This document shows positions 1,437-4,460 of a DNA stretch of 64,000 nt, piece after piece. This DNA comes from Bacteroidota bacterium. GTDB lineage: Bacteria; Bacteroidota; Bacteroidia; Chitinophagales; Chitinophagaceae. How positions within the stretch are numbered: the first letter of the stretch is position 1; every line of letters begins with the position of its first letter. A program made the position numbers and the translations under genes. The notes beneath the pieces were generated by a model. The model had not been told where the DNA came from. It ran no database searches and saw only the letters and a list, made by a program, of their open reading frames with translations. Where the stretch lies: NCBI GenBank assembly GCA_963169635.1, contig CAUJDL010000065.1, positions 1 through 64,000 of the forward strand, written 5' to 3'.

Positions 1437-1450
1437 GTTACTTTTGTAAC
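1437..1450 (+). promoter_or_regulatory. Promoter -7 element with overlapping palindrome upstream of the Crp/Fnr gene
   Basis: TACTTTTG at 1439-1446 matches the Bacteroidota -7 consensus TAnnTTTG. It lies inside a perfect palindrome with 5-base arms and a 4-base spacer, GTTAC-TTTT-GTAAC. The ATG at 1451 follows immediately, so the predicted transcript starts at or next to the start codon. The same 5-4-5 architecture recurs at 2077-2090, which suggests that the regulator represses its own gene. The promoter match is seen directly. The operator role is inference. Confidence 0.55.
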
Positions 1451-2080
1451 ATGATGATTGCCGAAAAATTTAAAAATATTTTTGAGCCAGAGTTAATTAC
1501 TGAAATAGAAAAAGTTGCTAACATCATTGAGGTAAAAGAAGGCAATACAATATTAGATATTGGACAAACTGTAAGAGTAATTCCACTATTATTAACAGGT
1601 ATTTTAAAAATTTCTAGAGCAGATGATGCAGGAAAAGAATTACTACTTTATTATGTTCATGCAAACGAAAGTTGTGCAATGACATTTACTTGTTGCATGC
1701 AACAATATCCTAGCGAAATAAAAGCAACTGCAGAAACCGATGCTACTTTTTTAGCAATTCCTATCAATAAAATGGATCAATGGCTTTCTCTTTATCCTAC
1801 TTGGAAAAGTTTTGTAATGAAAACTATAAGACACAGATTTAATGAATTATTAAATACCATTAATCAGTTAGCATTTCAAAAATTAGATGAAAGACTTATC
1901 AATTATTTAAAAGAAAAAGCAAAAGCTACTAACTCTACACTCATCAATCTTTCTCACGAAGAAATTGCTAATGAAATGGCTTCTTCAAGAGAAGTGATAT
2001 CTAGGCTATTAAAAAAATTAGAGCATGATAATAAAGTGTTGCTTTATCGTAATCAAATAAAACTATTAAAGGATTTGTGA
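1451..2080 (+). CDS. Crp/Fnr family transcriptional regulator
   Basis: A 209-residue regulator with an N-terminal cyclic-nucleotide-binding-type beta barrel (about 20-115), a dimerisation helix and a C-terminal winged helix (about 150-209). The recognition helix reads SSREVISRLL. It has Arg180, Glu181 and Arg185 in the spacing that E. coli CRP uses to read GTGA half-sites. The N-terminal Cys cluster of FNR is absent, but the barrel holds Cys residues in ESCAMTFTCC (about 75-84), which may be redox- or thiol-reactive (inference). A GTGAC-N4-GTCAC palindrome overlaps its stop codon, upstream of the OsmC/rhodanese/Dps/thioredoxin genes, which are its likely targets. ATG 1451 and ATG 1454 are both possible starts. 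Confidence 0.88.
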   Translation: MMIAEKFKNIFEPELITEIEKVANIIEVKEGNTILDIGQTVRVIPLLLTGILKISRADDAGKELLLYYVHANESCAMTFTCCMQQYPSEIKATAETDATFLAIPINKMDQWLSLYPTWKSFVMKTIRHRFNELLNTINQLAFQKLDERLINYLKEKAKATNSTLINLSHEEIANEMASSREVISRLLKKLEHDNKVLLYRNQIKLLKDL

Positions 2081-2090
2081 CCAATGTCAC
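2077..2090 (+). promoter_or_regulatory. Candidate Crp/Fnr operator upstream of osmC
   Basis: A perfect palindrome GTGAC-CAAT-GTCAC overlaps the stop codon of the Crp/Fnr gene. Its centre (2083.5) lies about 42-45 bases upstream of the start point inferred from the -7 element at 2113-2120, which is the class II activator position of CRP/FNR proteins. The half-site fits the CRP-like recognition residues of the adjacent regulator. Binding is inferred. Confidence 0.55.
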
Positions 2091-2112
2091 TATCTAGCAA
2101 AAAATAATGTAT

Positions 2113-2120
2113 CACTTTTG
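2113..2120 (+). promoter_or_regulatory. Putative -7 element of the osmC-trx cluster
   Basis: CACTTTTG matches TAnnTTTG at all positions but the first. The inferred start near 2125-2128 leaves a leader of about 30 bases before the OsmC ATG at 2156. No good -33 TTG is visible, as expected for an activator-dependent promoter. Confidence 0.45.
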
Positions 2121-2155: not shown

Positions 2156-2623
2156 ATGAAACACGAAATTGAATCGCAATGGATGGGTAAAATGCAGTTT
2201 AATGCATTAGTAAATGATCATACAATTATTATGGATGCACCAGAAAGAGCAGGAGGCGAAAATAATGGTCCTATTCCAAAACCTTTTGTACTTACAGCAC
2301 TTTCAGGTTGTACAGGTATGGATGTTATTGCTTTATTGCGTAAGCAAGGAAAACAGTTAAATGATTTAAACATTAAAGTAAGTGGCGAAATAAGCAAACA
2401 ACAACCTATAGAATATGTAGCAGCACATATTATTTATGAAATAAAAGGTAACGAAGAAGATAAACAAGCAGCTTTTGATGCTATTACTACATCGCAAGAA
2501 AAAATTTGTGGCGTAAGTAGTATGCTTAAAAAAATTATGCCTGTAACTTGGCAAATAATTTTTAATGGAGTAGAAATTTATAATAATCAGCCACAAGCTG
2601 TAACAACAACACAACTTAACTAA
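2156..2623 (+). CDS. OsmC family protein (thiol peroxidase-like)
   Basis: A 155-residue OsmC/Ohr-superfamily protein. Members of this superfamily reduce organic hydroperoxides or act on sulfur compounds with two conserved cysteines. Here these are Cys52 in ALSGCTGMDV and Cys118 in KICGVSSML, separated as in the family. The protein has no signal peptide. It is the first gene of a tightly spaced same-strand run (DUF6132, two rhodaneses, Dps, small membrane protein, thioredoxin), and the following ATG begins directly after its stop. The context suggests peroxide or reactive-sulfur defence. It is closer to the general OsmC (YhfA-like) branch than to a proven Ohr. Confidence 0.88.
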   Translation: MKHEIESQWMGKMQFNALVNDHTIIMDAPERAGGENNGPIPKPFVLTALSGCTGMDVIALLRKQGKQLNDLNIKVSGEISKQQPIEYVAAHIIYEIKGNEEDKQAAFDAITTSQEKICGVSSMLKKIMPVTWQIIFNGVEIYNNQPQAVTTTQLN

Positions 2624-2842
2624 ATGAACCAATTTATTCAAAAATATAAACTTACCCTTATAGGCATTGTTTTAGGTAGCATTGCAGGTTATGCATATTA
2701 TTATTTTGTAGGCTGCAATAGTGGTACTTGTGCCATTACTTCTAAACCAATAAACAGTACAGTTTATGGTGCTTTAATGGGTGCTCTAATTTTTTCTAGC
2801 TTTAATAAACAACCAATAAAAAAAGAACAAAATGAAAACTAA
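2624..2842 (+). CDS. DUF6132 family small membrane protein
   Basis: A 72-residue protein with one clear membrane helix (about 10-30) and a weaker hydrophobic segment near 48-60. Between them is GCNSGTC (Cys31, Cys36). It matches the DUF6132 family of Bacteroidota by its SKPINSTVYGALMG stretch. The function is unknown. Its start codon abuts the osmC stop and its end overlaps the next gene by 11 bases, so it is surely cotranslated with them. The C-x2-G-x-C motif recurs in the small membrane protein at 3904, hinting at a shared role in handling sulfur or metal (inference). Confidence 0.75.
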   Translation: MNQFIQKYKLTLIGIVLGSIAGYAYYYFVGCNSGTCAITSKPINSTVYGALMGALIFSSFNKQPIKKEQNEN

Positions 2843-3089
2843 TAAAATTATTATTGATGTAAGAACTCCAGAAGAATATTGTGGAGGCTGTATAGCAGAA
2901 AGTATTAATATTCCTTTAAACGAAATTCAAGATCGTGTAGAAGAAATAAAACAAATGAACCAACCAATTATTTTATGTTGTGCAAGTGGTATGAGGAGTG
3001 CTCAAGCAACTGCCTTTCTTTCAAGTGTAGGTATTCAATGCGAAAATGGTGGAGGTTGGCAAGATGTAAAAAATATTTTAGTAAACTAA
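2832..3089 (+). CDS. Single-domain rhodanese-like sulfurtransferase
   Basis: An 85-residue single rhodanese domain, about the minimal length for the fold. It starts with IIIDVRTPEEY and has the active-site loop C-ASGMR-S with catalytic Cys50, preceded by another Cys49. Such proteins carry persulfide sulfur between a donor and an acceptor. There is no signal peptide. An additional CGGC pair at 17-20 is unusual for the family and could form a disulfide or hold sulfur (inference). It overlaps the preceding gene by 11 bases and is followed after 9 bases by a second rhodanese. Confidence 0.88.
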   Translation: MKTNKIIIDVRTPEEYCGGCIAESINIPLNEIQDRVEEIKQMNQPIILCCASGMRSAQATAFLSSVGIQCENGGGWQDVKNILVN

Positions 3090-3098
3090 AAAATCAGC

Positions 3099-3413
3099 AT
3101 GTTACAATTAATTAAAAATTTATTAGGCTTAGGGCCTAAAGCAAATTATAAAGAACTAATGAGTAATGGTGCACAAATAATTGATGTACGTACTAAAGGA
3201 GAATATCAATCAGGCTGTATAAAAGGCTCTGTCAATATTCCACTTCAAAATCTTTCAGCTAATCTTTCTAAAATTAAAAAAGATAAACCTGTAATTACTT
3301 GTTGTGCAAGTGGTATGAGAAGTGCTTCTGCAAAAAGTATTTTAAAGTCTAATGGTTTTTCAGAAGTGTATAATGGTGGTGGATGGATGAGTCTTAGAAA
3401 TAAAATTTCTTAA
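3099..3413 (+). CDS. Rhodanese-like sulfurtransferase, second copy
   Basis: A 104-residue rhodanese domain with a short N-terminal extension. It shares with its neighbour the DVRTxxEY start, the Gly-Cys-Ile pattern (Cys40), the CCASGMRSA active loop (catalytic Cys69) and the closing NGGGWxxxRN region. The two are therefore probable tandem duplicates that have diverged. The first residues MLQLIKNLLGLG could form an amphipathic helix. It lies in the OsmC-thioredoxin cluster, where the thioredoxin at 4146 is a plausible reductant for its persulfide (inference). Confidence 0.88.
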   Translation: MLQLIKNLLGLGPKANYKELMSNGAQIIDVRTKGEYQSGCIKGSVNIPLQNLSANLSKIKKDKPVITCCASGMRSASAKSILKSNGFSEVYNGGGWMSLRNKIS

Positions 3414-3431: not shown

Positions 3432-3896
3432 ATGAACTTAATAGGATTAGATAAAAAGAAAAGCGAAAAACTTGCTACTAAGTTAAATGAGCTTTTAGCA
3501 GATTATATGGTTTTTTATCAAAATACCAGAGGGCTGCATTGGAATATTAAAGGCGAAAAGTTTTTTGAATTACATCTAAAGTTCGAAGAGCTTTATACTA
3601 ATTTATTTCAAAAAATAGATGAAGTAGCAGAACGTGTACTTACATTAGGAGTTACGCCACTACATACTTTTGAAGATTATATTAAAACATCTTCTATTAA
3701 AAGTGGTAAAAATATTACTAAAGCAAACCCAGCAGTAGAATTAGTGTTACAATCATTACAAACATTATTAGTAAAACAAAGAGCATTATTAAATATGTCT
3801 GCAGATGCTAATGATGAAGGCACTAATGCTTTAATGAGTGATTATATTCGTGAGCAAGAAAAATTAGTTTGGATGTACTCATCTTATCTTAAATAA
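3432..3896 (+). CDS. dps: Dps family ferritin-like protein
   Basis: A 154-residue Dps/starvation-inducible DNA-binding ferritin-like protein of normal family length. Dps dodecamers oxidise ferrous iron with hydrogen peroxide and store it, which protects DNA. The ferroxidase-centre residues are recognisable: the RGLHWN motif with His36, the HLKFEELY helix around 48-55 and DEVAER (Asp63, Glu67). The N-terminus is short and only mildly basic, so DNA binding is uncertain. It lies in the same direction as the rhodanese genes, 18 bases downstream, consistent with an oxidative-stress operon. Confidence 0.92.
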   Translation: MNLIGLDKKKSEKLATKLNELLADYMVFYQNTRGLHWNIKGEKFFELHLKFEELYTNLFQKIDEVAERVLTLGVTPLHTFEDYIKTSSIKSGKNITKANPAVELVLQSLQTLLVKQRALLNMSADANDEGTNALMSDYIREQEKLVWMYSSYLK

Positions 3897-3903
3897 ATAA
3901 TTA

Positions 3904-4140
3904 ATGAAGCAAAGAATTTTATCAGGCTGGAATTTTAGAAGAGTAATGTATTTATTATTAGGCATAGCATTAATAGCACAATCTATTATGATACAACAAT
4001 GGATGGGTATTTTCATTGGTGCTTATTTTGCTGCAATGGGTATTTTTTCATTTGGCTGTGCAGCAGGTAATTGCTATACTAATAATACACATCAAACAAA
4101 AAATAAAGTAGAGGATATTACTTATCAAGAAGTAAAATAA
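3904..4140 (+). CDS. Small membrane protein with CxxGxC motif (YgaP/DUF2892-like)
   Basis: A 78-residue protein with two predicted membrane helices (about 13-30 and 33-50), followed by [11 protein letters not shown] (Cys52, Cys57) and a polar tail. The layout resembles the C-terminal membrane part of YgaP-type rhodaneses, here as a separate polypeptide next to soluble rhodaneses. The family link is tentative. The C-x2-G-x-C motif is the same as in the DUF6132 protein at 2624. It sits 7 bases after dps and 5 bases before the thioredoxin gene, so it is part of the same run. Confidence 0.7.
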
Positions 4141-4145
4141 TTAAG

Positions 4146-4460
4146 ATGCAAGCAACAGCAAAACCTAATAGCTTTTCTGCCATTATTGCACAAGACAAAC
4201 CTGTTTTGGTAGATTTTTTTGCAGAATGGTGTGGTCCGTGTAAAATGATGAAACCTATTTTAGAAGAGCTAAAACAAAAATTAGGTAATAATATCACTAT
4301 ATTAAAGGTAGATGTAGATAAAAATCCTGGGGTAGCAGCTAACTATCAAATACAAGGAGTACCAACCCTTATTTTATTTAAGCAAAATGCTATAAAATGG
4401 CGTCAGGCAGGGGTAGTTCAGGCAAATCAATTAGCACAAATTATACAACAATATCAATAA
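4146..4460 (+). CDS. trxA: Thioredoxin
   Basis: A 104-residue single-domain thioredoxin with the classical redox motif [10 protein letters not shown] (Cys29, Cys32) and the cis-proline loop GVPTLILF. No signal peptide is present, so it acts in the cytoplasm. It is the last gene of the cluster that begins with OsmC. It is well placed to regenerate OsmC, Dps-associated thiols or rhodanese persulfides (inference from context). Normal length and motifs make the family assignment secure. Whether it is the housekeeping thioredoxin or a dedicated one cannot be told. The symbol is by family. Confidence 0.92.

Follow-up and report, generated by a model that had tools for sequence, protein, structure and literature searches.

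The class II activator position of Escherichia coli CRP is -41.5. In CRP, Glu181 and Arg185 contact the same third-base G:C pair, and Arg180 contacts the outer G (PMC11253593). In P. gingivalis, CrpPg (PDB 2GAU) is a cAMP-independent Bacteroidota Crp homolog that regulates fimbriae and other genes, and trxA is down in the CrpPg mutant (PMC12040651). The sigma-A box TAnnTTTG lies at -12 to -5 in Flavobacterium psychrophilum (PMC9723704). Here we analysed a 64,000-nucleotide stretch of contig CAUJDL010000065.1 from a Bacteroidota bacterium (Chitinophagaceae), hereafter the window, in which a Crp/Fnr-superfamily regulator gene stands directly before a gene cluster running from OsmC to thioredoxin (Table 1). 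This regulator very probably turns on the adjoining sulfur/redox genes via a DNA site overlapping the stop codon of its own gene. No Crp/Fnr regulator of such genes was found described in the open-access literature.

Table 1 Features of the regulator locus and of the downstream cluster in the window.
Feature	Position	Strand	Remark
Upstream palindrome GTTACTTTTGTAAC	1437..1450	.	At most lineage-specific, not a conserved operator
-7 box TACTTTTG of the regulator's own promoter	1439..1446	+	Puts +1 at 1451, A of ATG
Crp/Fnr-superfamily regulator, 209 aa	1451..2080	+	ATG at 1451, TGA stop at 2078-2080; invariant Cys75; Arg180-Glu181-Arg185 recognition helix
Predicted class II operator GTGACCAATGTCAC	2077..2090	.	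Centre -41.5; embeds regulator TGA stop codon
-7 box CACTTTTG of the target promoter	2113..2120	+	TAnnTTTG except first base; inferred +1 at 2125
OsmC-family protein	2156..2623	+	First target gene
DUF6132 small membrane protein	2624..2842	+	
Rhodanese-like protein 1	2832..3089	+	
Rhodanese-like protein 2	3099..3413	+	
Dps/ferritin-like protein	3432..3896	+	
Small membrane protein without Pfam match	3904..4140	+	
Thioredoxin	4146..4460	+	Last of the tightly spaced cluster

The regulator is a member of the Crp/Fnr superfamily and is neither CRP proper nor FNR. Its HTH_Crp_2 and Crp domains scored above cut-off, with a Crp-type winged helix-turn-helix present at the C-terminus, and Pfam cNMP_binding reached 26.5 bits on the barrel, just below the cut-off of 27.5. 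The AlphaFold2 model (pLDDT 86.8; TM about 0.8 to both CRP and the Eubacterium rectale Crp/Fnr protein 3dv8) exhibited a cNMP-binding-type beta barrel and a long dimer helix in the N-terminal part. Arg180, Glu181 and Arg185 of the regulator carry numbering identical to that of E. coli CRP. CRP proper, the cAMP receptor, was ruled out by the profile alignment to CRP, where of the cAMP-anchoring residues Glu72 fell on a gap and Arg82 was not conserved, and by the NCBIfam CRP model, which gave 44.7 bits against a cut-off of 266. Because of the Glu72 gap and the unconserved Arg82, cAMP is not expected to be the ligand. FNR, the iron-sulfur oxygen sensor, was ruled out as well, as the window protein has no FNR-type N-terminal Cys cluster plus central Cys; its only cysteines are Cys75, Cys81 and Cys82, all within the sensor domain, and the first two map to the cAMP-holding region of CRP in the profile alignment. 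The protein belongs to an uncharacterised Bacteroidota Crp/Fnr subfamily; among 395 genomes sampled throughout the phylum, 140 carried a member. Orthologs were collected from relatives, a named genome collection, the family and the phylum, yielding 236 distinct loci. One locus (L083, 50% identity) lies on a contig titled Bifidobacterium breve and encodes a Bacteroidota-type regulator; the record is probably misnamed or the bin contaminated.

A GTGAC-N4-GTCAC palindrome had been reported before the OsmC-thioredoxin cluster by a first-pass annotation of this DNA, and GTGACCAATGTCAC was indeed confirmed at 2077-2090, overlapping the TGA. Sites in the orthologous loci were scored on the eight fixed bases of GTNAC-N4-GTNAC, with a threshold of 7/8, from -20 to +120 of the stop codon. 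Results showed a downstream site near the regulator stop in 127/236 loci, usually before sulfur genes; a clear adjacent site was missing in the other 109. Among the first 139 loci, matches of at least 7/8 were seen downstream in 82 and ahead of the start in 18, compared with 2 in a coding control of equal size. Five loci (L255, L256, L069, L082 and L246) had no downstream site, and their upstream site faced away from the regulator gene, which suggests control of the divergent neighbour. In the genome to which the window belongs (2.23 Mb, 91 contigs), GTNACN4GTNAC occurred 14 times compared with 28 for a reversed-pattern control, which shows no genome-wide enrichment of the motif. For a palindrome to occur by chance both within 100 bp ahead of the ATG and within 75 bp beyond the stop, the joint probability was about 3e-7. 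A third palindrome of the window (48421) falls within an ORF. The full composite (palindrome, 22 bp, NANNTTTG) was found in this genome only at 2077-2120, with no second perfect or one-mismatch copy; at up to two mismatches there were 33 composite sites, below the 73 of the control, and a genome-wide regulon in this genome was dismissed on that ground. The circuit had been described earlier as self-contained, and the part of this description that stands is the one perfect target in the genome; its self-repressing half is unsupported, as set out below.

Residue 181 of the regulator is Glu or Val, and Glu goes with GTGAC and Val with GTAAC. Glu181 regulators had 71 downstream sites, with the third-base pairs GG (35), AG (32) and AA (4), mixed G/A sites being common; in the downstream sites of Val181 regulators, the pairs were AA (36), AT (12), AG (6) and AC (5). 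Over 142 rows, 73 combined Glu with G, 58 combined Val with no G, and 11 were discordant; the clade L132/L145/L305 is an exception, pairing Glu181 with GTAAC sites. In a phylogeny that excluded the recognition helix, at least six changes of residue 181 were counted, three of them being forced by well-supported branches. Simulated independent evolution reached the observed association in 0/2000 runs, and the comparison of dependent with independent evolution gave LR 35.5 (p = 3.6e-7); these two tests replaced a sign test on independent pairs, of which there were too few. The left half-site contains the regulator stop codon in 54 loci. In these overlapping sites, Glu regulators used TGA in 19 and TAA in 9, and Val regulators used TAA in 26 and TGA in none (p = 4e-8, kinship not corrected), TGA thus occurring with Glu regulators only. 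Where site and stop do not overlap, the stop codon showed no association with residue 181 (p = 0.65), and the stop-codon coupling serves the covariation as an internal control.

Since residue 181 covaries with the site and sets the overlapping stop codon, the regulator itself appears to read the site. Arg180 would read the outer G, and Glu181 together with Arg185 the third-base G:C of each half-site. The previous proposal that a CRP-like helix reads GTGA gains support in this way: the residues are present, and residue 181 covaries with the base it would contact. Several Crp/Fnr paralogs exist per Bacteroidota genome, and the conserved site might be read by another of them, its adjacency to this gene being due to chance. 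We regard this as extremely improbable, because the third base tracks residue 181 of this very regulator, and composite sites were present in 22/41 genomes with the subfamily and in 1/18 without it.

The promoters of the 127 sites were further compared in their geometry. The distance from the operator centre to the last G of TAnnTTTG was 36.5 bp in 80 sites and 37.5 bp in 12, and any other distance accounted for about 0.6 sites each, giving a single peak in the palindrome-aligned promoters. The window promoter fits exactly (site centre 2083.5, box G at 2120, inferred +1 at 2125), with a -7 box that is without the first T of the consensus. Given a box at -12 to -5, the 36.5-bp spacing puts the operator centre at -41.5; the site had earlier been placed at about -43 from the inferred start, and its upstream placement stands with this recalculated centre. 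No conserved -33 element was detected in the aligned promoters, and sigma-70 and terminator scans returned chance-level matches. Operator, spacing and residue-base match are well supported by computation, and from these we infer binding and the direction of regulation. Class II activation of the OsmC-thioredoxin cluster, as the first-pass annotation had it, receives strong support at the sequence level from the conserved site, the fixed -41.5 position and the covariation.

The regulator could instead act at 2077-2090 as a repressor and block polymerase until released by a thiol signal, in the manner of BigR; the site does cover the -35/-33 region, and repressors are found among known sulfide/persulfide sensors, for example BigR in its own operon (PMC5823870). 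This is quite unlikely. A spacing constant to 1 bp, as in 92/127 promoters (36.5-37.5 bp from the box G), is expected for polymerase contact and is not needed for blocking, and a conserved -33 element is absent. Activation is preferred over repression mainly because of this fixed spacing. The regulator would act as a homodimeric Crp/Fnr-type activator, whose active dimer would bind GTGACCAATGTCAC over its own stop codon and, at -41.5, would contact sigma-A RNA polymerase in class II fashion at a promoter that carries a TAnnTTTG-type box and in which no -33 element can be seen.

The region before the regulator gene gave a different picture. The GTTAC-N4-GTAAC reported earlier does overlap the -7 element, GTTACTTTTGTAAC abutting the ATG at 1451 and enclosing the box at 1439-1446. 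Self-repression through this palindrome, also proposed earlier, was rejected as a general feature for its poor conservation and off-specificity T. The palindrome occurred at the ATG in the window (L001) and L002 only, out of 236 loci, so that of the two palindromes only the downstream one was conserved among relatives; it was lost in L003 (82% identical regulator), which retains the -7 box TACATTTG and has GTTACATTTGCAAT in place of the palindrome. Its third base is T in both half-sites, and a third-base T was seen in 0/71 downstream sites of Glu181 regulators. The conserved part of this region is the -7 box. The same regulator may still bind 1437-1450 and repress itself by covering the box, since the 5-4-5 palindrome across it is perfect in the window and L002, and Crp autoregulation is frequent, with P. 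gingivalis CrpPg binding its own promoter (PMC12040651); we consider this unlikely in view of the two-locus distribution, the changed palindrome beside an intact box in L003 and the third-base T, and part of the palindrome match comes from the -7 box itself. In 26/236 loci a TAnnTTTG ended 3-5 bp before the regulator ATG, which would put +1 at or close to the A of the start codon and make the mRNAs leaderless; the mRNA of the window regulator is probably leaderless and starts at its ATG. The pattern TANNTTTGNNNNATG was not enriched in the window's genome (71 versus 79 in the control).

The first genes beside the regulator at the 127 sites were TauE (33), YgaP-TM (24), rhodanese (22), MBL (11), OsmC (8), SulP (7) and Sulf_transp (4), and about 101/127 were TauE, rhodanese, MBL, YgaP-TM, SulP or Sulf_transp. 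A regulator-blind scan of 59 relatives for the composite site gave 43 sites, against 17 in the control; many of the 43 preceded MBL-type persulfide-dioxygenase-like, rhodanese, TauE, YgaP-type or Sulf_transp genes. These sites point to control of sulfur detoxification and transfer genes by the regulator. Near L008, a 26-kb region around the regulator (G030:C1:2653669-2679504) carries eight perfect composite sites, an apparent multi-operon regulon island. In the target cluster of the window, the two rhodanese genes stand third and fourth. The cluster suggests one transcript, as all genes from OsmC to thioredoxin lie on the + strand with intergenic gaps of -11 to 18 bp; OsmC-DUF6132-rhodanese-rhodanese-Dps-TM-thioredoxin would be switched on together, as a putative operon. 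Small membrane proteins without Pfam match recur beside the operator (window 3904-4140 and L282), as does a Cys-rich membrane protein, again without Pfam match (L206). The window's genome also encodes a persulfide-dioxygenase-like MBL protein (L319, C41:21733-22176 of genome G000; 60% identity), which is probably outside the circuit because no composite site with up to two mismatches lay near it among the matches listed.

As for the inducing signal, the sulfur target genes elsewhere and the invariant Cys75 together favour a reactive-sulfur or thiol signal, a reasonable inference held less surely than binding, direction and operon structure. By conservation, the candidate sensor residues are Cys75 (236/236) and Cys81 (200/236, missing in 36/236); a thiol-reactive sulfur species would most likely act at Cys75, in what was once the cyclic-nucleotide pocket. 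Peroxide, nitric oxide or the general redox state might serve as the signal, the DNA circuit remaining unchanged. The OsmC-type and Dps-type proteins of the window cluster would fit peroxide stress and C75, C81 and C82 could form disulfides, but most targets across the family are genes for sulfur transport and transfer rather than peroxide genes, and this reading is possible though doubtful. Taken as a whole, the model of an activator with a -41.5 operator, residue-base reading, a sulfur signal at Cys75 and no self-repression is one in which we have considerable confidence. Opinion is evenly balanced on its extension to the phylum, by which Bacteroidota Crp/Fnr activators would sense reactive sulfur through an invariant Cys in the old cNMP pocket, with residue, operator base and stop codon co-switched several times.

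A predicted operator, a promoter geometry and a target set are now given for an undescribed regulator subfamily, together with a Glu/Val switch in specificity that occurs naturally at a residue familiar from structures of CRP with DNA. Should the sulfur signal prove true, this would be an activating sulfur sensor, of which none was found described in the phylum in the open-access papers searched. One protein and a small number of short DNA probes would be enough to test the main claims.

Compared with class II activation by E. coli CRP, the system shares the fold, the Arg180/Glu181/Arg185 contacts, the GTGA-N6-TCAC core and the centre at -41.5, but has no conserved Glu72/Arg82 equivalents, uses a TAnnTTTG -7 box and would serve one local target in its own genome. 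The best profile and fold match was 3dv8, with an aligned Cys pair and an R-E-V-I-T-R helix; it differs by its 24% identity and origin in another phylum, and is a solved structure whose function is not described. CrpPg, likewise a Crp homolog of Bacteroidota, was absent from the profile matches listed for the window regulator, and no Cys-sensor role is described for it. In contrast to the heme-NO sensors HcpR and DNR, the present regulator has sulfur genes as its predicted targets in place of hcp or nor. The sulfide/persulfide sensors BigR, SqrR and CstR are similar in being Cys-based and in their rhodanese, persulfide-dioxygenase and TauE-type targets, predicted ones in the present case; those proteins, however, are repressors of other folds, whereas the present regulator is a Crp/Fnr protein predicted to act from an activator position.
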